Source of the DNA: Acidobacteriota bacterium
Lineage (GTDB): Bacteria; Acidobacteriota; Terriglobia; Bryobacterales; Bryobacteraceae
Direction: 5' to 3'
Assembly (NCBI GenBank): GCA_947470805.1
Contig: CANIVU010000089.1
Location: forward strand, 1-37,378
Length of the DNA stretch: 37,378 nucleotides
Shown here: one piece after another, positions 24,286 to 34,997 of the stretch
Layout: each line of letters opens with the position of its first letter
Numbering within the stretch: the stretch's first letter is position 1
Translations under genes and position numbers: made by a program
Notes under the pieces: generated by a model
What the model was told of the DNA's origin: nothing
Database searches by the model: none
What the model saw: the letters and a program-made list of their open reading frames with translations, nothing else

Positions 24286-25341
24286 TCACAGCGCGAGTGA
24301 GGCTTTGGCGCGGAGGTCCATGCCGGCGAAGTCTCCGGTGCGGAATTTGCGGAAGGCGGCGGCGCCGATCATGGCTGCGTTGTCGGTAGAGAGCCCCGGG
24401 GTAGGGAAGTAGATGGGCACGCCGATGCGGGACCGTGCGGCGGCCTGCCGCAGACCAGCATTGCAGGCTACGCCGCCGGTGATGATGACACTTTCAACCG
24501 GGTGCTCCGCCGCCAGTTTGCCGATGCGCGACAACAGTTCGTCGATGACCGTTTGTTGGAAACTGGCGATCAGATCTCGCGTCGCGGGTGGCGTGACGGC
24601 CAGCCATTCTTCAACCGTCGTGCCGCTCCCCAGACGCCGGCGTGCGGCGGTCTCATCGGTAATCGGGTGCGCTTCCGTCCATCGCAAAACCGCCGTTTTC
24701 AGGCCGGAAAAGGAGAAGTCGAGCGCATTGCCCTTCATGTTGGCCCGCGTGAATCGCACGCCATGAGGATCGCCAAATGGGGCGAGCTTATCCAGAATCG
24801 GGCCGCCCGGATAGGGGAAGCCGAGCAGCTTGGCGACCTTGTCGTAGGCCTCACCGGCGGCGTCATCGCGCGTGCGGCTGATTAACTCGTACTCGAAATC
24901 GCCGCGTACGTGATAGAGGTGCGTATGCCCGCCACTGACAATCAACGCCAAGGCGGGGAGCGCCGTTTGCGGATACTCCAGAACGACGGCGTGGATGTGG
25001 CCCTCCAGGTGGTTCACCGCGAGGAGCGGCAAGTCCCGCGCCTGGCAGATGGCCTTGGCGTAGGTAACACCGACCAGCAGCGCGCCCAATAATCCCGGGC
25101 CGTAGGTGCAGGCAACGGCGTCCAGTCCGGACCACGTGATGCCTGCCCTCATCAGCGCCTCGTCCACAACGGGCGTGATCGCGCGCATGTGTTCTCGGCT
25201 GGCGAGTTCCGGGACCACGCCGCCGTACTTCTGATGGGTCTCAATCTGAGAAGCGACCACGGAGGAGAGGACCGTGCGGCCGTCTTCAACGACGGCTGCG
25301 GCGGTCTCGTCACAGGAGGATTCAATGGCTAGGATGCGCAA
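24286..25341 (-). CDS. tsaD: tRNA N6-adenosine threonylcarbamoyltransferase TsaD
   Basis: This 351-aa enzyme makes the t6A37 modification of ANN-decoding tRNAs together with TsaB, TsaE and TsaC. Its sequence has the N-terminal [21 protein letters not shown], the metal-binding His111 and His115 (NHLEGHIH), SGGHTHLY at 136-143, and the C-terminal [12 protein letters not shown] and [15 protein letters not shown]. The reading frame has no ATG or GTG at its start; TTG at 25341 is the only fitting start. It diverges from queA with 17 bp between the start codons. Identification is certain. Confidence 0.97.
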
Positions 25342-27740: not shown

Positions 27741-27757
27741 AACGCTAAAACAGCGTT
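27741..27757 (+). terminator. Hairpin directly after the ceramidase-like gene
   Basis: AACGCT and AGCGTT pair around a 5-nt loop; AACGA and TCGTT extend the stem beyond a 3-nt bulge. It begins 5 bp after the ceramidase-like stop codon and covers the tldE stop, so it may end plus-strand transcription. Confidence 0.45.
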
Positions 27758-29082
27758 ACTTCGTTGAACGAAAAATCATTGACCAGCATCGCCGGCACAA
27801 CCATATCGAACGCCTCTTCGCCGGACCCGCGCTCCGGCGCCGACATCGCCTCCACCCGGTGCAATACGTCAATCACCGACTCGTTAAACCGGAAGTTGTG
27901 CAGCCCGCAAACGATCTGCCCGTCCTCCACCAGGAACGTGCCGTCGCGCGTCATCCCCGTCATCACTTTCCGGAACGGATCCACCTCGCGGATGTACCAA
28001 AGCCGTGTCACCAGAACGCCCGTGCCGAGCTTCGCCAGTAGCGCCTCGCGCGACTCCGTGCCACCAGCAATCACAATATTGCCGACGCTCTCCCCGCCCT
28101 CGCTTGGCAGGCTCGACCCATGTCCCGTGGGCGTGCGCCCGGCCCGCAGCGCCGCCGCACGCCCATAGGGCATCTCGCCCGGCACGCCATCGGCGAACAG
28201 TGTCAACGTCTGGCGTGGCACGCCCTCGCCATCGAACGGCGCACCATCCTGCAGCGGATGCCGCACGTCGTCATAAATCGAAATGTTCTTTCCAAACAGC
28301 TGCTGGTCCAGGCGTCCCGTCAGAAAGCTCCGTTCCTCCTCGATGGCCGTCGCGGTGCAGTCGCCAAAGATCTGCCCGACGAAGTCCAACACCGCCGCCG
28401 GCTCCAACAGCACTCGATACTTACCCGGCTCCATCCGCCGCGGCTTGGCGGAATGGGCCGCTTTCTCCGCTGCGCTCCGTGCCAGCCGGACCGGGTCCAA
28501 ATCCCCGGCCGACACCGCGCTCGCCTTCGCCCAGCCGCTCGAATCGGCCGCCGTTGCGGTGATGGAAAAAGTCGCGCCTGTCTCATCGTGCCGGACAAAA
28601 ACGCCGTTACTGTTCACTAGAATCTGCGAAGACCGGGACGTCTCAAAAATCCCAGCCGCCACCTGCCCCGCCGTCGCGACACACGCAATCGCCTCCCGCA
28701 CCGCCTCCGCCCGCACCTGTGGCGAATACGCCGCCGTGGCCTCATCCCAGCGCATCACCGGCGTTACCGGCGATGGTTCATAGAGCGCTAATAGATTCGC
28801 GTCCGGCTCGCTCGCACGCGCCAGCGCGATCGCCGACTTTGTCGCCTCGCGGATGTTGGCGAACCGGTTCGTCGTCGCCCGCGCCGTCCGCTGCCCAATG
28901 GCGACGCGAATCGAAATCGCCCGCGACTCCTCGCTCACATTCTGATGAATGCCGTTATTGGCGAACCGCGTTAGCGAGCTCTCCTCAGCCGCCAGATACA
29001 CTTCCACATCGTGAACCCCATACGCCCGTGCCTCGACGCGCGCAATGTCAAACCACTCCCGTGCCTGCGTATCCGTCATCAC
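27745..29082 (-). CDS. tldE: TldE/PmbA-type metalloprotease-related subunit
   Basis: This 445-aa non-catalytic partner of TldD belongs to the TldD/PmbA family. It has the paired-domain layout: an N-terminal domain with GVHDVEVYLAAEESSLTRFANNGIHQ and ATTNRFANIREATKSAI, then a C-terminal domain with YRVLLEPAAVLDFVGQIFGD, ISIYDDVRHPLQDGAPFDGEGVPRQTLTLF and IVIAGGTESREALLAKLGTGVLVTRLWYI. The HExxxH metal motif is absent, as expected for TldE. The ATG overlaps the tldD stop by 4 bp. In Escherichia coli the TldD/TldE heterodimer digests unfolded peptides and matures modified peptides. No peptide precursor is visible here. Confidence 0.92.
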   Translation of the reverse strand: MMTDTQAREWFDIARVEARAYGVHDVEVYLAAEESSLTRFANNGIHQNVSEESRAISIRVAIGQRTARATTNRFANIREATKSAIALARASEPDANLLALYEPSPVTPVMRWDEATAAYSPQVRAEAVREAIACVATAGQVAAGIFETSRSSQILVNSNGVFVRHDETGATFSITATAADSSGWAKASAVSAGDLDPVRLARSAAEKAAHSAKPRRMEPGKYRVLLEPAAVLDFVGQIFGDCTATAIEEERSFLTGRLDQQLFGKNISIYDDVRHPLQDGAPFDGEGVPRQTLTLFADGVPGEMPYGRAAALRAGRTPTGHGSSLPSEGGESVGNIVIAGGTESREALLAKLGTGVLVTRLWYIREVDPFRKVMTGMTRDGTFLVEDGQIVCGLHNFRFNESVIDVLHRVEAMSAPERGSGEEAFDMVVPAMLVNDFSFNEVTLF

Positions 29083-30524
29083 AAACTCCCTACCGCAATG
29101 CGGCCAAACCGCGAAGGGCTCGCCCCGTGCCCGGTACCCATCACCTGTTCCGGTTGTCCCTTACCGCAATTCGGTACCCCCCACAGCGTCCAGTTGTCGC
29201 GATTCCCAATCGCCTCGCAGGCATTCCAGAACTGCGTTGAAATGCCGCTATACACGGGGTTCTTCAGCATCCGCACCCGCTTGCCATACCGGATCTCCCA
29301 AGCCACTTCACAGCCGAATTGAAAGTTGTACCGCTTATCGTCAATCGACCAGCTCTTGTTCGTCTCCATGTAGATTGCGTGTGGAACATCGAACAGCTCC
29401 TCCAACGACGAAGTCCCCGGCTCCAGACTCGTATTCGTCATGCGGATCAACGGCAGCCGGTCCCAGTTCGCCGCCCGCAAACACCCATTCGACCGTCCCT
29501 CCCCCACAGCCCCAGCCGTCTCCCGGCTCGTCAAATAGCCCGTAAACAAGCCCTCGCGAATGATATCGGTGCGCTGCGCCGCCACGCCTTCATCGTCAAA
29601 CCCAAACGTCCCCAACCCCGGCCCATGCGTCTCCGTCGCGTCGCTCACCACATGTACCAACGGCGACCCATACCTCAAACTTCGCAACTGGTCGAGCGTC
29701 AGAAAACTCATCCCCGCGTAGTTCGCCTCGCTCCCCAATACCCGGTCCAACTCAATCGGATGCCCGATCGATTCATGAATTTGCAGTCCCAACTGCGAAC
29801 TATCAAGAATCAGAGTGAACTCGCCCGTCGGGCACACATCGGCGGCGTGCAGCGCGGCCGCTTCCTCGGCCAATCGCGGCGCATGCGCCAGCATGTCCAA
29901 CTCCTCCACCAGCTCCCAGCCCTTCAACTGATACTGCCCTCCAAACGAGTTCGGATACGAACGCTTCTGCAAGTCGCCGTCCTGGAACACGTGACAAGCG
30001 CACCCGGCCCCGGTCATCGTCCGGGTCTGCGCAATGACACTCCCTTCGGAGTTCGCAAACCACTGTCGCGTCCGAGTCGTATGGAACGAGGTCTCCGTCA
30101 ACGTCACGGCCTTATGGGCCCGCATCGCCTCATCCACCGCCAGCAAATGCGCCAGCTTCTGCGACACCGGAATGCTCAATGGATCAACGACGCACGGCGA
30201 GGCCCATGACGCCTGATGCACCGGTTCCGGCGCCAGGCGAACGGCCGAGCCCAACGCCAGCGTACTCGCCTTCGCAATCGCCCGCGCCTTCGAAATCGCT
30301 TTCTCAATTCCCGCCGGCGTCAGGTCGTCGGTTGCCGCGAATCCCCACCCGCCATCCACCAGCAGTCGGATCCCAATCCCCGCCGACTCGGTATCAGCCA
30401 CCTGTGACACCCGCCCGTTGCGTGTGGAGAGGTCCTGCGACCGCGACTCCACTAGCCGCACGTCGGCGTATTGCACGCCGTTCTGCGTGGCCAGGTCGAG
30501 CGCTCGAAGCACGATCTGTTGCAT
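29079..30524 (-). CDS. tldD: Metalloprotease TldD
   Basis: This is the 481-aa zinc-dependent catalytic subunit of the TldD/TldE protease. The HExxxH motif is His250-Glu251-x3-His255 (LQIHESIGHPIELDR). The conserved C-terminal cysteine ligand lies in VPNCGKGQPEQ. Other family features are GIRLLVDGGWGFAATDDLT, TFGFDDEGVAAQRTDIIREGLFTGYLTSRE and RMTNTSLEPGTSS. It diverges from the peroxiredoxin gene across a 22-bp gap. Identification is firm. Confidence 0.95.
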   Translation of the reverse strand: MQQIVLRALDLATQNGVQYADVRLVESRSQDLSTRNGRVSQVADTESAGIGIRLLVDGGWGFAATDDLTPAGIEKAISKARAIAKASTLALGSAVRLAPEPVHQASWASPCVVDPLSIPVSQKLAHLLAVDEAMRAHKAVTLTETSFHTTRTRQWFANSEGSVIAQTRTMTGAGCACHVFQDGDLQKRSYPNSFGGQYQLKGWELVEELDMLAHAPRLAEEAAALHAADVCPTGEFTLILDSSQLGLQIHESIGHPIELDRVLGSEANYAGMSFLTLDQLRSLRYGSPLVHVVSDATETHGPGLGTFGFDDEGVAAQRTDIIREGLFTGYLTSRETAGAVGEGRSNGCLRAANWDRLPLIRMTNTSLEPGTSSLEELFDVPHAIYMETNKSWSIDDKRYNFQFGCEVAWEIRYGKRVRMLKNPVYSGISTQFWNACEAIGNRDNWTLWGVPNCGKGQPEQVMGTGHGASPSRFGRIAVGSL

Positions 30525-30546
30525 ATGGTCTATTGTGAAGGACTGT

Positions 30547-31017
30547 ATGCTTGCCTGGCTATTTGGCAGTCCCTTGGAGGTTGGCGCGCCGGCGCCCCCA
30601 TTCTCGTTGCCCGACGAGAACGGCCGCGGGGTCTCCCTCGCGAGTCTGAAAGGGAAGCCTGTCGTCCTCGTCTTCTACCCGGGTGATGACACGTCCATCT
30701 GCACCCAACAGCTCTGCGAAATTCGCGACGACTGGGCCGCCTTCAAACGACTCGGCGCAGCCGTCTATGGCGTCAATGGCCAAGGTCCCAACGCCCACGG
30801 CAAATTCTCGGCAAAGTACAAATTCCCGTTCCCTCTATTGGTCGATAGCGGCTGGGAGATGTCGCGCGCCTACAACGCCGGCTGGGGTTTGGTGCGTCGA
30901 ACCGTCTACGTGATCGGTCCTGATGGCCGCATCGCCTACGCCCAAAGAGGAAAGCCCTCCACCGCGGAAATTCTCTCCGCGATAGAGGGCTTCCTGAACC
31001 ACAAAACTACTTCTTGA
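30547..31017 (+). CDS. BCP/PrxQ-type peroxiredoxin (cysteine form)
   Basis: This 156-aa thiol peroxidase reduces hydrogen peroxide and organic peroxides. The universal active site PxxxTxxC is PGDDTSIC (Pro45, Thr49, Cys52). Cys57, five residues later, is the resolving cysteine in the usual BCP arrangement. FSLPDENGRGVSLASLKGKPVVLVF is the family N-terminal part. The frame is open upstream, but ATG 30547 with GAAGGA as ribosome site gives the right length. There is no signal peptide, so it should act in the cytoplasm. Its 3' end overlaps the convergent selenocysteine-type peroxiredoxin by 11 bp. Confidence 0.93.
   Translation: MLAWLFGSPLEVGAPAPPFSLPDENGRGVSLASLKGKPVVLVFYPGDDTSICTQQLCEIRDDWAAFKRLGAAVYGVNGQGPNAHGKFSAKYKFPFPLLVDSGWEMSRAYNAGWGLVRRTVYVIGPDGRIAYAQRGKPSTAEILSAIEGFLNHKTTS
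30952..30992 (-). terminator. Nested hairpin downstream of the selenocysteine peroxiredoxin
   Basis: AAGCCCTC (30952-30959) pairs with GAGGGCTT (30985-30992), and inside it CGCGGA (30963-30968) pairs with TCCGCG (30976-30981) on the same axis. This gives 14 bp with a symmetric 3-nt internal loop. It lies 14 nt past the minus-strand stop at 31007 and within the coding tail of the BCP gene. On the minus strand a T-rich stretch (TCCTCTTT) follows, so it is a likely terminator. Confidence 0.6.
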
Positions 31018-31531
31018 TTCGCTGACACGCCGCGATCGACGCTTCGTTGTGAGGCGCCGGCTTGGGATCGTAGATGATCTCCGCGATCTTGCCTTCTTTG
31101 TCAATGACGAACGTTGTGCGGCTGGCGATGCCGCGTTCAGTCATCAGGACGCCATACGCTTTCGCGGTGTTGCGATTCGGGAAATCCGAAAGTAGCGGGA
31201 ACTCCAGTGTCAGGTCGTCGGAGAAGCGCTTCAAAGACGGCGCTGCATCGACGCTGATTCCAAACACCTGCGAATCCGCTTCGTTAAAGTTTTTGATTCC
31301 AGCCTGGAACCCTTTCATTTCCGCGGTTCAGCCACCCGTAAACGCCAGCGGGAAGAAGGCCAGAACAACTGATTTCTTGCCTTTGAAATCCGCCAGCGAA
31401 AACGATTTGCCGGGAACCGAGGAACTGAGCTTGGAAAACTCCGGAGCCATATCGCCAACCTTCAGATGCGTCTTGCCGTCTTTGGCAAAAAGCATCGCGG
31501 CGGCGAAGCTCAGGAAGATGAGTTTCTTCAT
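31007..31531 (-). CDS. Periplasmic peroxiredoxin with TGA-encoded selenocysteine at the active site
   Basis: Read through one in-frame TGA (31328-31330), this frame encodes a 174-aa AhpC/TSA-family peroxiredoxin. Residues 1-16 are a signal peptide (MKKLIFLSFAAAMLFA). VGDMAPEFSKL and SFSLADFKGKKSVVLAFFPLAFTGG lead to the TGA at codon 68, followed without shift by TAEMKGFQAGIKNF. The TGA occupies exactly the peroxidatic position of PxxxTxxC (Pro61, Thr65, residue 68). The second half is intact: VFGISVDAAPSLKRFSDDL, YGVLMTERGIASRTTFVID with the conserved Arg, to the TAG stop. A SECIS-like hairpin lies 16 nt after the TGA (31295-31311). Both halves are fully conserved, so a decayed pseudogene is unlikely. 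A sequencing error at one base is the main alternative. Selenocysteine machinery is not in the window. Confidence 0.85.
31295..31311 (-). promoter_or_regulatory. SECIS-like hairpin downstream of the in-frame TGA
   Basis: On the minus strand GGTTCCA pairs with TGGAATC (7 bp including one G-T pair) around a GGC loop. It starts 16 nt after the TGA, and the loop begins 23 nt after it. Bacterial SECIS elements lie within the coding region just downstream of the UGA, with a guanine among the first loop bases; this fits both. Confidence 0.7.
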
Positions 31532-31615
31532 AGTTCGTCCTCGTTGAAATGGAACTGCTCTAGTATTCTAGCGCCTCGCGATCATTTCGGCGGGGCGAAT
31601 GCGCACTTACCTGTG

Positions 31616-32365
31616 ATGGCTACCGCCGTTCTCCTCCTGACCGGAATCATCGCGTTCTTATGCGTCACGGCCAATGATTCCAACTTCGGCCCCATGCGCG
31701 CCATGCTGGCAATGGCCCAGTTGGGGCTTGTCTTTGTTCGCGATCTGCTCCTCACAAACACCATCGCGCGCCAGTCCCGCTGGCTCGCGCTGGCCTACCT
31801 CGTCGCCGCCGCCGCGGCCTTCCTCTGCCTGCTTGCCAGTCAGCACGGCTACGGCGAACTCTCTGACGCCGCCCTGCTCCTCGCCCCCATCGCCGCCTTC
31901 GGCACCCCTCTAACCGCACTCCTCGCTATCCACTGGCGCCACCCTGCCCCGGCCATCCTCTGCGCCTGCGTCGTTCTCGCCGGAGCCTACGTCAACGGCT
32001 TCATCCTCCCACAAATCTTCCGCAGCAACGCTCCGCCGCCGATCCCGCTCGCCGCCAACGCCCCGCTCGAAGACTGGCGACCTTACTTCATGGGGGCCCA
32101 GCGCGAACGCGTCATCACCCTCCTCAAACAGCGCCCCACACTCGAAGCCGATCTGATCGCCGGCCTCCAATCCCAGGAGCCTCTCGAAATGCTCCACACC
32201 TTCGATCTCATCTCGGCACTTGAACCCGCTCCCACCCCCGCCTTGCGCGACGCCTTCAGCGACGCCCGGAAACGCCTCGCCCCGCTCGTCACGCCCAAAA
32301 CAGAAGAGGCCTGGCGGATTCGAACTCGCCAGGCCTCGGAAGCGCTCGGAATGCCGAACTCCTAG
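31616..32365 (+). CDS. Integral membrane protein of unknown function
   Basis: This is a 249-aa protein not recognised as a known family. The first 125 residues hold four to five hydrophobic segments (ATAVLLLTGIIAFLCVTA, LALAYLVAAAAAFLCLLAS, ALLLAPIAAFGTPLTALLAI, AILCACVVLAGAYVNGFILP). The remaining ~115 residues are soluble and helical, rich in Pro, Ala and Arg (MGAQRERVITLLKQRPTLEADLIAGL, then EAWRIRTRQASEALGMPNS). I place the start at ATG 31616, where the hydrophobic region begins; the upstream open frame overlaps the peroxiredoxin gene. It ends with a 4-bp overlap with the convergent M24 gene. The coding tail contains a strong hairpin. Confidence 0.75.
   Translation: MATAVLLLTGIIAFLCVTANDSNFGPMRAMLAMAQLGLVFVRDLLLTNTIARQSRWLALAYLVAAAAAFLCLLASQHGYGELSDAALLLAPIAAFGTPLTALLAIHWRHPAPAILCACVVLAGAYVNGFILPQIFRSNAPPPIPLAANAPLEDWRPYFMGAQRERVITLLKQRPTLEADLIAGLQSQEPLEMLHTFDLISALEPAPTPALRDAFSDARKRLAPLVTPKTEEAWRIRTRQASEALGMPNS
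32306..32337 (-). terminator. Terminator hairpin downstream of the M24 peptidase gene
   Basis: GAGGCCTGGCG (32306-32316) and CGCCAGGCCTC (32327-32337) form a perfect 11-bp stem with a 10-nt loop. It lies 24 nt past the M24 stop on the minus strand, and TTCTGTTTT follows on that strand, so it looks like an intrinsic terminator. It is embedded in the coding tail of the opposing membrane-protein gene. Confidence 0.7.
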
Positions 32366-33534
32366 ATCTTCACCATCTCCGTCTGCAGTGCGCCGGTCAC
32401 GCGCGCGTCGCGATCGCCCACGAACACATTCACTTCGCTGCGAATCCCGAACGCCGGCAAATAGATCCCCGGCTCCACCGAAAAACACGTCCACGGAATC
32501 ACGCGCCGCTCGTCATGCGTCTCCAGGTTGTCCATGTTCGCGCCGGACCCATGCACGTCCTCGCCAATGGAATGGCCGGTGCGGTGCACGAAGTATTCCG
32601 CCATGCCGTGCTCGCGAATGTGCCCGCGGCAGGCATCGTCCACCTCAAATCCGTACAGCGGAACGCCAGCGCCAATCGATGCTTGCACCTTCGCCACAGC
32701 CGCGTCGCGTGCGCCCGTGACAATCGAAAACACGCGCTGCACTTCGTCCGGAATCACCTCGCCCGTGTACCCGGTCCACGTCACGTCGTAGTAGACAGTC
32801 CCCGGCTTGTTCAACTTCGCCCACAGGTCGATCAACACCACATCGCCCTGCTGAATCACCTCATGGTTGTCCGCCATCGGCTCGTAATGCGGGTTCGACG
32901 CATTCGCGTTCACGCCCACAATCGGACCGTGATCGGTGAACAACCCGGCCCGCTCAAACGACTCCAAAATGAAGTTCTTGACGATGAACTCATTCACCGG
33001 TTCGCGCCCGCGCAACCGGTCGCCGATCTCCAAAAAGGCTGCCCGCCGGATCTCGTCCACTAGCACTCCGGCCGCCATATGCGAGTCCAACTTCTCCTGC
33101 GTCCACTTGGCCTCAAAGATCTGCACCAGGTTCGCCGACGTCACCACCTCCACGCCCTGCTCGCGGATCAGTTCCACCGTCCCGGCATCCACCATCGCCA
33201 CATACGGCACCGCGCACATCGGCGAATACTGCATCGCCACGCGCTTGCACCCGGCCAACAGCGTCGTCAGCCCATACACCTGGCGCGACCAGCTCGAATA
33301 GGTAGCCATCGTGCCCGGCAGCGCGTCCAGCATCCCCGGCTCAATCTGGTGCACCAGCTTCCGCGGCTCGCCGTTCGCGGGGATCAGGTAATACCACCGC
33401 CGCGTCGGGATGCGCGGCGCGTCAAAGCCCAGAACGCGGTACGCCAGCGGATCGCGTAAGTGGTGATCGAAAAACAGCCACCCGTCCAGTTTCTCTTCCC
33501 GCAACGCCTGTTGAATCGCCGCGACATTCATCAT
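32362..33534 (-). CDS. M24-family metallopeptidase (Xaa-Pro peptidase-like)
   Basis: This 390-aa creatinase/prolidase-fold peptidase is separate from the pepP-like gene near 15 kb. All five metal ligands are in place: Asp in VVLIDLWAKL, Asp in YYDVTWTGY, His in HRTGHSIGEDVHG, Glu in FSVEPGIYL and Glu in IRSEVNVFVG. The N-terminal domain (LDGWLFFDHHLRDPLAYRVLG) is the family's usual non-catalytic half. There is no signal peptide. The ATG overlaps the stop of the oligopeptide transporter gene by 4 bp. This suggests imported peptides are the substrates, an inference from context. Confidence 0.93.
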   Translation of the reverse strand: MMNVAAIQQALREEKLDGWLFFDHHLRDPLAYRVLGFDAPRIPTRRWYYLIPANGEPRKLVHQIEPGMLDALPGTMATYSSWSRQVYGLTTLLAGCKRVAMQYSPMCAVPYVAMVDAGTVELIREQGVEVVTSANLVQIFEAKWTQEKLDSHMAAGVLVDEIRRAAFLEIGDRLRGREPVNEFIVKNFILESFERAGLFTDHGPIVGVNANASNPHYEPMADNHEVIQQGDVVLIDLWAKLNKPGTVYYDVTWTGYTGEVIPDEVQRVFSIVTGARDAAVAKVQASIGAGVPLYGFEVDDACRGHIREHGMAEYFVHRTGHSIGEDVHGSGANMDNLETHDERRVIPWTCFSVEPGIYLPAFGIRSEVNVFVGDRDARVTGALQTEMVKI

Positions 33535-34997
33535 TTCGACTCTCCCATTAAGCCGCGCAGCGGCTTTACAAATACCGTCAGAACTACCGCCGCCGCAATC
33601 GCGAACAGCGCCACATACAGGAACAATTGTTCCAGTTTCATCGATTCGTAGAATCCGGACAACCGCCCGCCGATATAATTCCCAGTCGCAATCGACAGGA
33701 AGAAGACGCCCATGATCACGCCGCCCATTCGCGCCGGCGCCAGCTTCGTCATTGCCGACAGTCCCACGGGGCTCAAACAGAGCTCGCCGATCGTGTGCAG
33801 CAGATACGTCAACACCAGCCAGAACGGGCTTACTTTTTCACCGGCATCCGCCACCGCCGCCGGAGGCACCAGGATCAAAAATCCCAGCCCCACAAAAAGC
33901 AGCGCCAGCGCGAATTTCGCCGGCACGCTCGGCTCCCGCGGTCCCAGCTTGATCCACAGCACGGAGAACAAAGGCGCCAGAATCAACAGCCAAATCGAAT
34001 TCACCGATTGGAACCAACTAGACGGATACGCCATGCCGAACACCTCATTGCGCGTCCGCTCATCGGCGAACAAATTCAACGTCGACCCGGCCTGTTCAAA
34101 CGACGACCAGAACACTGCCGACGCAATCGACAGACATAAAATCACCGCGATGTTCTTCCGCTCCTGCCCCGGCATCGCCGCCCGGAACAGCACCACGAAA
34201 ATCCCCACAAAGCTCAGCGCCATCAACACCGAAAACCCATCCGCGATGCCCGCGATGGAAACCGATGTCACGCCAGAAGTCTGCAAAAAGCCCAGCAAAA
34301 GCGGCAGTCCCACCACCGCGCCCAGCCCCAGCGCCAACTGCTTCTTCTCCTCCGCCCCCGGCGGCGTTGCCGTCTTTAGCCCGGCCTCGCCCAGAAACCG
34401 CTGCGTCAGTACATACTGAATGAGCCCCACCGACATCCCCACCGTAACCAGCAGAAACGCCCATCGCCAACTGATCGTCTGGCCCACATAGCCGATCACC
34501 AACGGCGCCAAAAAGGCGCCCAGATTGATGCCCATGTAGTAGAGCGAAAATCCCGCGTCGCGCCGCGTGTCCCCCTTCGCATATAGCGCGCCCACCATCG
34601 TGCTGGCGTTGGTCTTCAATAGCCCCGTACCCACACAGATCATGCCCAGGCCCAGATAAAACGTCCACATCAGCGGCGCCGCCAACAGCGCATTCCCAGC
34701 CGCGATAATGATGCCCCCATACAGCACCGCCTTCCGCTGCCCCAGGATTCGATCGGCCACCCAGCCCCCCGGCAAACTCAGCAGATACACCGACGCCGTG
34801 AAGATCCCATAGATAGCCCCAGCGGTGGTCTTATCCATCCCCAGCCCGCCGTTTTGCAGCTGTGCCGTCAAATACAGAATGAGAATCGCCCGCATCCCGT
34901 AATAGCTGAACCGCTCCCACATCTCCGTAAAGAAGAGCGTGGATAGTCCGCGCGGATGCCCGAAAAACGAAGTGTCGCCTACGGATTGCGTTGCCAT
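33531..34997 (-). CDS. POT-family proton-coupled oligopeptide transporter
   Basis: This 488-aa major-facilitator-type membrane protein imports di- and tripeptides with protons. The family signature ExxERFxYYG is at TEMWERFSYYGMRAILILYL near residue 24. GGWVADRILGQRKAVLYGG and FSLYYMGINLGAFLAPLVIGYVG are the second conserved motif region. About 14 hydrophobic segments can be counted. Its stop overlaps the start of the M24 peptidase, giving a likely uptake-and-digest pair. Its start overlaps the upstream ABC ATPase by 19 bp. Confidence 0.95.
   Translation of the reverse strand: MATQSVGDTSFFGHPRGLSTLFFTEMWERFSYYGMRAILILYLTAQLQNGGLGMDKTTAGAIYGIFTASVYLLSLPGGWVADRILGQRKAVLYGGIIIAAGNALLAAPLMWTFYLGLGMICVGTGLLKTNASTMVGALYAKGDTRRDAGFSLYYMGINLGAFLAPLVIGYVGQTISWRWAFLLVTVGMSVGLIQYVLTQRFLGEAGLKTATPPGAEEKKQLALGLGAVVGLPLLLGFLQTSGVTSVSIAGIADGFSVLMALSFVGIFVVLFRAAMPGQERKNIAVILCLSIASAVFWSSFEQAGSTLNLFADERTRNEVFGMAYPSSWFQSVNSIWLLILAPLFSVLWIKLGPREPSVPAKFALALLFVGLGFLILVPPAAVADAGEKVSPFWLVLTYLLHTIGELCLSPVGLSAMTKLAPARMGGVIMGVFFLSIATGNYIGGRLSGFYESMKLEQLFLYVALFAIAAAVVLTVFVKPLRGLMGESK

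Follow-up and report, generated by a model that had tools for sequence, protein, structure and literature searches.

A peroxiredoxin gene interrupted by one TGA codon

The window is the whole stretch of DNA analyzed here, 37,378 nucleotides of contig CANIVU010000089.1 from an Acidobacteriota bacterium. Its minus strand carries a peroxiredoxin gene in which a single in-frame TGA lies between the motifs PLAFTGG and TAEM, with the frame kept on both sides (Table 1). The initial annotation had placed this TGA at the peroxidatic position and noted that family conservation crosses it without a frame change. Both points were borne out: the site reads PLAFTGG-U-TAEM, and the Pfam AhpC-TSA match (residues 25 to 151, E = 3.9e-35) spans the codon, as does the Redoxin match (9.6e-28). 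A plain listing of open reading frames (ORFs) breaks the gene into two, 31531-31328 (67 aa) and 31318-31007 (103 aa), just as had been predicted for an ordinary gene caller.

Of the 19 genus genomes searched, 17 have, among the matches listed, an orthologue with the TGA (16 full-length genes and one partial gene, that of G006). The 17 comprise the window genome, two that share 99% identity with it, and 14 more; G002 (83% complete) and G012 (58% complete) have no TGA orthologue among the matches listed. Because the identical TGA recurs in 16 further genus genomes, a sequencing error is ruled out, including the misread TGC or TGT that the initial annotation had considered. Selection on the protein is evidently maintained 3' of the TGA: in ungapped alignments of 16 genus genes, codon changes downstream of it numbered 4089 at third positions versus 1239 and 658 at first and second positions.

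The other neighbors are unremarkable and encode a TldD/PmbA pair, an M24 peptidase, a POT transporter, and TsaD. The 3' end of the gene overlaps that of the convergent PrxQ-type peroxiredoxin gene by 11 bases. A PrxQ-type match adjoins 9 of the 17 selenocysteine (Sec) genes of the genus, and also the Cys copy in G030 (L025), and none was found in the stretches of flanking sequence covered for the other eight Sec genes (L015 to L022). No functional link with this neighbor is therefore claimed.

Table 1. Features at the peroxiredoxin locus of the window
Feature	Position	Strand	Remarks
Sec peroxiredoxin gene	31007..31531	-	174 aa, counting TGA as Sec; starts with ATG, ends with TAG
Likely ribosome-binding site, GAGGA	31538..31542	-	6 nt before ATG; from sequence
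Predicted export signal, residues 1-16 (MKKLIFLSFAAAMLFA)	31484..31531	-	Sequence, hydropathy, low pLDDT
TGA, proposed selenocysteine codon, residue 68	31328..31330	-	Peroxidatic position of PxxxTxxU
Candidate SECIS hairpin	31295..31311	-	7 bp; stem 31311-31305 / 31301-31295, loop GGC 31304-31302
Cys169 codon (TGT), proposed resolving Cys	31025..31027	-	Last helix, 162-173; alignment and model
Convergent PrxQ-type Cys peroxiredoxin (YPGDDTSICTQQLC)	30418..31017	+	TTG start as listed; ATG 30547 likelier
Ordinary neighbor genes	27748-30524, 32365-33534, 33534-34997, 24289-25341	-	

Fold, enzyme class, and second cysteine

The protein has the features of the peroxiredoxin superfamily, namely an AhpC-TSA/Redoxin domain, the PxxxTxxC motif with U in the place of C, and the conserved arginine, R138, which is invariant in the alignments. 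No NCBIfam model scored above its cut-off for the window protein. The leading structural matches of an AlphaFold2 model (mean pLDDT 90.1, pTM 0.84) were Sulfolobus Bcp4, the first Foldseek match (3hjp, E = 1.4e-17), and Mycobacterium tuberculosis AhpE, and sequence-profile matches were to 2ywn and AhpE entries. We classify the protein as an AhpE/PrxQ-like peroxiredoxin.

Residue 169, a cysteine within the last helix of the model, is invariant in an alignment of 12 diverse rows. When a C-terminal Cys was counted as any Cys from +85 onward, 86 of the 129 rows of the tree described below had only the C-terminal Cys, 34 had only a Cys at +4 or +5, nine had neither, and none had both (Fisher p = 3e-23 for the exclusion, among rows that are related and hence not independent). 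This distribution suggests that Cys169 stands in for the +4/+5 Cys of relatives, and the protein probably works as a Sec/Cys enzyme by way of a selenenylsulfide. A selenoprotein with a 1-Cys mechanism like that of M. tuberculosis AhpE, in which a small thiol or another protein would do the resolving and Cys169 would be structural, is unlikely. It would agree with the presence of the 1-Cys AhpE among the best structural matches and with the nine rows that have neither Cys, but it would leave the invariance of Cys169 and the mutual exclusion of the two positions without a reason.

A predicted export signal

The initial annotation assigned the protein to the periplasm from its N-terminus. Export was scored as an 11-residue stretch of mean hydropathy >1.6 before the domain, taking the best of the possible starts. 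Such a stretch precedes the domain in 62 of the 65 homologues described below versus 5 of 22 other peroxiredoxins of the same loci; with ATG starts only, the homologues still have it and the control drops to 3 of 22. Two of the five positive controls, L104 and L108, look exported themselves. The homologues that failed the measure were L002 (odd start), L023 (contig edge), and L102 (1.59). Mean pLDDT of the model in residues 1 to 20 was 54 and 51. A twin-arginine-like RR motif, under a loose pattern, was found in 18 of the 65: in family f3 it occurs in 14 of 23 genes, in f1 in three, and in f6 in one. The f3 Sec peroxiredoxins in which a twin-arginine-like signal takes the place of the plain one are L077, L079, L080, L082, L084 to L091, L093, and L095.

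N-terminal hydropathy against a control thus supports the proposed periplasmic signal, and export stands as a prediction. The Leu at residue -3 of the likely cleavage site of the window protein, and a hydropathy measure that picks the best of the possible starts, would suit a cytoplasmic or membrane-anchored protein whose N-terminus is no cleaved signal. This is improbable given the hydrophobic stretch in 62 of 65 homologues but 5 of 22 controls, and the twin-arginine-like motif that some homologues have under the loose pattern. On sequence grounds, the window protein appears to be exported.

TGA and cysteine codons among homologues

To follow the TGA column through homologues had been suggested at the outset. 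The sample comprised 61 related genomes (the window genome, G000, and 60 others), all of which gave some peroxiredoxin match. From the genes fetched, 65 homologues that had both the active-site pattern and a C-terminal Cys were taken. Left out of these counts were the repeat loci L005, L081, and L112; other peroxiredoxin types (L003, L004, L006, L007, and rows lacking the active-site pattern or C-terminal Cys); the PrxQ-type L107 and L109; and L096, a contig-end fragment. The peroxidatic codon was TGA in 57 of the homologues and a Cys codon (TGC or TGT) in eight. At least 52 of the 61 genomes have at least one TGA copy with the C-terminal Cys. Among the matches listed, three genomes (G031, G033, and G053) have Cys copies only, and six (G002, G012, G020, G027, G032, and G058) have no qualifying copy. 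The first five of these six gave only weaker matches among the matches listed, from which no gene was taken; G012 also has a contig-edge fragment at 78%, and G058 has TGA peroxiredoxins that lack the C-terminal Cys. Weaker copies may have been missed in the 61 genomes. A further set of at least 80 named loci, nine of 80 repeating the first set, had 41 TGA and 39 Cys codons at the site among the matches listed; these counts are not frequencies, because one of the two scan patterns contains Cys.

A tree of 129 rows, omitting L146, L176, L177, L096, and any identical rows, was made with the active residue masked and rooted at the midpoint. One group of 67 rows (96/87), all Acidobacteriota or window relatives, holds 57 Sec and 10 Cys rows. 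The Cys rows fall at five places within it: L027, a group of six, L025, L122, and L024, the last two placed by weakly supported branches. The nesting of the Cys rows, in a tree whose root is the midpoint only, suggests that Sec is ancestral in this group. Eighteen further Sec rows, chiefly from family f3 and likewise carrying the C-terminal Cys, form a separate group that adjoins with middling support (94/73) a mostly-Cys group of Verrucomicrobiota, Planctomycetota, and others. The whole tree requires 11 changes between Sec and Cys, nine of them forced by well supported branches, versus 36 in shuffles. The Sec form is widespread, is probably old in Acidobacteriota, and appears to have been replaced by Cys in several lineages.

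Several additional copies and relatives were seen. In G017, a second copy (G017:C8:143250-143540; L022/L081) adjoins the Sec gene; its Sec position is occupied by an Arg codon and it contains an internal TAG, which marks it as a decaying duplicate. The Cys paralogue in the window genome itself (G000:C11:21566-21904; L002/L112) aligns only from residue 58-60, has an unrelated tail, and looks frame-broken or misassembled; a copy in G004 (L068) aligns from residue 5. Other types of peroxiredoxin in the same class (PrxQ-like, AhpC-like, and others) likewise have TGA as the peroxidatic codon, namely L105 and L113 (G059), L107 (G021), L109 (G057), L110 (G026), L111 (G028), and L103, L104, and L108 (G058). 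The use of Sec may therefore extend to several peroxiredoxin subfamilies of the class. Six loci from Verrucomicrobiota, Planctomycetota, and one Acidobacteriota relative (L143, L152, L154, L159, L174, and L189) read UTAEC or UTAQC, with Sec and Cys four residues apart; in the window gene's register they show no hairpin. The Bacillaceae peroxiredoxins L176 and L183 have a TGA at the same site (YPLDFTPG-U-IKEI).

A hairpin that accompanies the TGA

Bacterial SECIS elements are hairpins downstream of the UGA whose small apical loop contains a G (PMC1088965). The window gene has such a hairpin (GGUUCCA-GGC-UGGAAUC) shortly after the UGA, with 23 nt between UGA and loop, where the initial annotation had located it. 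Its folding energy was unexceptional over a 51-nt stretch (z = 0.00; 89 of 200 shuffles equally good) and lower for the 19-nt hairpin alone (z = -1.94; 9 of 200), and a search of the whole window with Rfam gave nothing at the gathering score. Energy alone is no proof of the hairpin; the case for it comes from its register, its covariation, and its absence from Cys homologues.

Scored in a fixed register, all seven pairs of the core form in 36 of the 57 TGA genes, six in 13, and four or five in eight. Thus 49 TGA genes (86%) have at least six of the seven pairs versus none of the eight Cys genes, which have one to five. The TGA genes average 6.47 pairs versus 4.08 when the same proteins are recoded with synonymous codons (300 rounds, codon usage pooled from these genes). 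At least six pairs arise in 5.1% of these recodings and all seven in 0.23%, compared with 63% observed for the latter; the seven pairs of the window gene itself are matched by 0.5% of 20,000 synonymous recodings. The same division recurs in the named set, in which, among the matches listed, 23 of 41 TGA genes and none of 39 Cys genes have at least six pairs. Four pairs or fewer in this register were found in 13 of the 41 named TGA rows among the matches listed. Eleven of these, with zero to four pairs, lack the C-terminal Cys; TGA genes of that kind may possess other hairpins.

Covariation was evaluated over eight pairs in the 57 TGA sequences (48 distinct rows) with 500 shuffles. The covariation score was 0.291 versus 0.146 in shuffles, and two-sided changes occupied 28 cells of the 48 distinct rows; no shuffle was as high in either respect. 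Five of the eight pairs had a two-sided change, a number reached by one shuffle. Cells were paired in 85.7% of cases in the distinct rows, versus 77.7% when shuffled and 22 to 40% when slid. Further pair types numbered 8 versus 7.2 in shuffles, 187 of which reached that number, and the two outermost pairs were broken in 27 and 19 of the 48 rows. Across the stem, the Phe codon TTC is accompanied by GGA (Gly) and the Tyr codon TAC by GGT (Gly), whereas TAT (Tyr) occurs together with GAT (Asp), as seen in 14 of 16 genes. The hairpin changes cross the coding frame, and therefore a silent change accompanies a protein change. The hairpin is kept with the TGA and not with Cys codons, and it bears signs of selection.

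Selenocysteine machinery

The initial annotation had named selA, selB, selD, and tRNA-Sec as genes to look for, and all four are present in the window genome (8.7 Mb, completeness given as 100). Matches to selA at C5 (478.9 bits), selB at C37 (376.7 bits), and selD at C8 (365.3 bits) exceed the curated cut-offs, and the tRNA-Sec at C51 (72.1 bits, also over its cut-off) has the anticodon TCA (ARAGORN: tRNA-SeC(tca)). The selD match contains one internal TGA. Near its start the frame reads AAGUASK, in which U is presumably the catalytic residue, followed by a 7-bp stem with the loop GGU; therefore, selD may share the type of hairpin found in the peroxiredoxin gene.

A tRNA-Sec of at least 60 bits, or a selB that is over the cut-off or in pieces, is present in every one of the 52 TGA-bearing genomes. 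Those without a countable selB in the assembly are G007, G021, and G035, and those without a tRNA-Sec of at least 60 bits are G018, G023, G034, G037, and G039. At this threshold, tRNA-Sec was counted in 52 of the 61 genomes; 55 exceed the Rfam gathering score of 47, and matches of 45 to 50 bits are probably tRNA-Ser. G031 has kept selB and tRNA-Sec, yet has a Cys copy only among the matches listed. G053 (93% complete), which has a TGT copy, gave a best selB match of 196 bits (cut-off 242) and a best tRNA-Sec match of 49.5 bits, which is over the gathering score but within the presumed tRNA-Ser range. G033 resembles G053 but is 62% complete. A Cys copy that follows loss of the Sec trait would agree with G053 but not with G031.

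It is highly improbable that the UGA is instead read as Cys or Trp, through a suppressor or an altered code. Cys is indeed the alternative residue at the peroxidatic column, but the full Sec machinery and a SECIS-type hairpin are in place, the neighboring ORF 30418-31017 terminates in TGA, and the selD match itself contains a TGA. The reading of the TGA as a true stop or a mutation, leaving a pseudogene or two ORFs as in the plain listing, has a genuinely decayed parallel in the adjacent copy of G017, but it is in practice refuted by the TGA shared across the genus, the protein selection downstream of it, and the hairpin tied to it, and its probability is negligible.

Proposed mechanism and significance

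Selenocysteine is very well supported because the TGA site, the Sec machinery, the distribution of TGA and Cys codons in homologues, the hairpin, and its covariation all point to it; at 31330-31328 it is nearly as certain as sequence evidence allows. The selenoprotein proposed in the initial annotation therefore gains substance; the conserved C-terminal Cys, the broad spread through Acidobacteriota, and the prior listing of TxxU peroxiredoxins as selenoproteins are points that it did not raise. We hold with high confidence the interpretation that the gene encodes a selenoprotein in which Sec68 would be inserted through SelB and the hairpin; the product is predicted to be an exported AhpE/PrxQ-like peroxiredoxin, probably old in Acidobacteriota, that would work through a Sec68-Cys169 selenenylsulfide cycle. 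SelB carrying Sec-tRNA-Sec would bind the hairpin, whose loop lies 23 nt behind the UGA, and selenocysteine would go in at residue 68. The N-terminal signal would take the product across the inner membrane, and the product would fold as an AhpE/PrxQ-like peroxiredoxin. Sec68 would then attack peroxide and become a selenenic acid, Cys169 of the last helix would form a selenenylsulfide with Sec68, and an extracytoplasmic thioredoxin-like protein would reduce it.

A broader scenario is tentative, with somewhat less than an even chance of being right. It holds that an exported peroxidase, Sec-based since early in the history of the group, extends across much of Acidobacteriota, with the last-helix Cys resolving where relatives use a Cys at +4 or +5, at most five Sec-to-Cys conversions, and the general secretory or twin-arginine route used according to family. 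If this is true, the enzyme would be a main selenium-dependent defense of common soil bacteria against outside peroxide. The selenoprotein interpretation itself, if correct, would offer a selenium enzyme needing export, repeated replacement of Sec by Cys within a single enzyme alongside hairpin loss, and a test case for a resolving Cys that shifts its place within a fold. Because no NCBIfam model exceeds its cut-off and ORF listing splits the gene, such genes are likely split or called broken in the genomes of soil bacteria.

Comparison with known selenoproteins and peroxiredoxins

Sec peroxidases were known before. The TxxU peroxiredoxin is a listed selenoprotein family in Zhang 2006 (PMC1794560), in the Sargasso Sea study of 2005 (PMC1088965), and in reviews of 2022 (PMC9312934) and 2026 (PMC13188914), and 91 such proteins in 78 organisms were reported in 2016 (PMC5029168). 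For Acidobacteria, four selenoproteins of three families were given in 2006 (PMC1794560), and three selenoprotein genes are reported for Occallatibacter riparius (PMC12013277). A member of the exported variant may be among these known Acidobacteria selenoproteins. Among the papers listed from the openly accessible literature on selenoproteins of Acidobacteria or Acidobacteriota, on Solibacter usitatus, on AhpE with selenocysteine, on periplasm and signal peptide, and on twin-arginine, no title or abstract opening described the exported Sec form.

Like M. tuberculosis AhpE (1xvw and 4x1u; TM 0.81 to 0.83 by query length, 34 to 35% identity), the window protein has the Ala-Phe dyad of PxAF(T/S)xxC. 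It differs in that Sec replaces the Cys of AhpE, Gly rather than Val or Ile precedes it, and there is an additional C-terminal Cys. AhpE is not known to have an export signal. The AhpE subgroup is described by the motif PxAF(T/S)xxC, in which the peroxidatic residue follows Val or Ile (PMC5302317). AhpE has a single Cys (PMC8945050), from which the window protein departs through its second conserved cysteine, Cys169. The likeness to PrxQ/BCP proteins (Sulfolobus Bcp4, 3hjp; Bcp1, 3drn) is that PRK09437 is the best NCBIfam model, but the score of 79.2 bits is below its cut-off of 140 and no Cys is present at +4 or +5. The thiol peroxidase Prx-SUH, listed as a selenoprotein (PMC13188914), shares the superfamily and the use of Sec, but the window protein scores 48.4 against the cut-off of 298 for NF045827.

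The closest parallel in Sec use is PrxU of Eubacterium acidaminophilum and the other members of the TxxU family, which also have Sec at PxxxTxxU, bacterial Sec machinery, and a hairpin after the UGA. The window protein scores 53.4 on the NCBIfam PrxU model NF040737 (cut-off 270), and it has an export-type N-terminus and a cysteine in the C-terminal helix, two features that may set it apart from the listed TxxU members. Since TxxU peroxiredoxins are already a listed family, the window protein is best regarded as a new exported variant of it, with apparent export and a second conserved Cys near its end.
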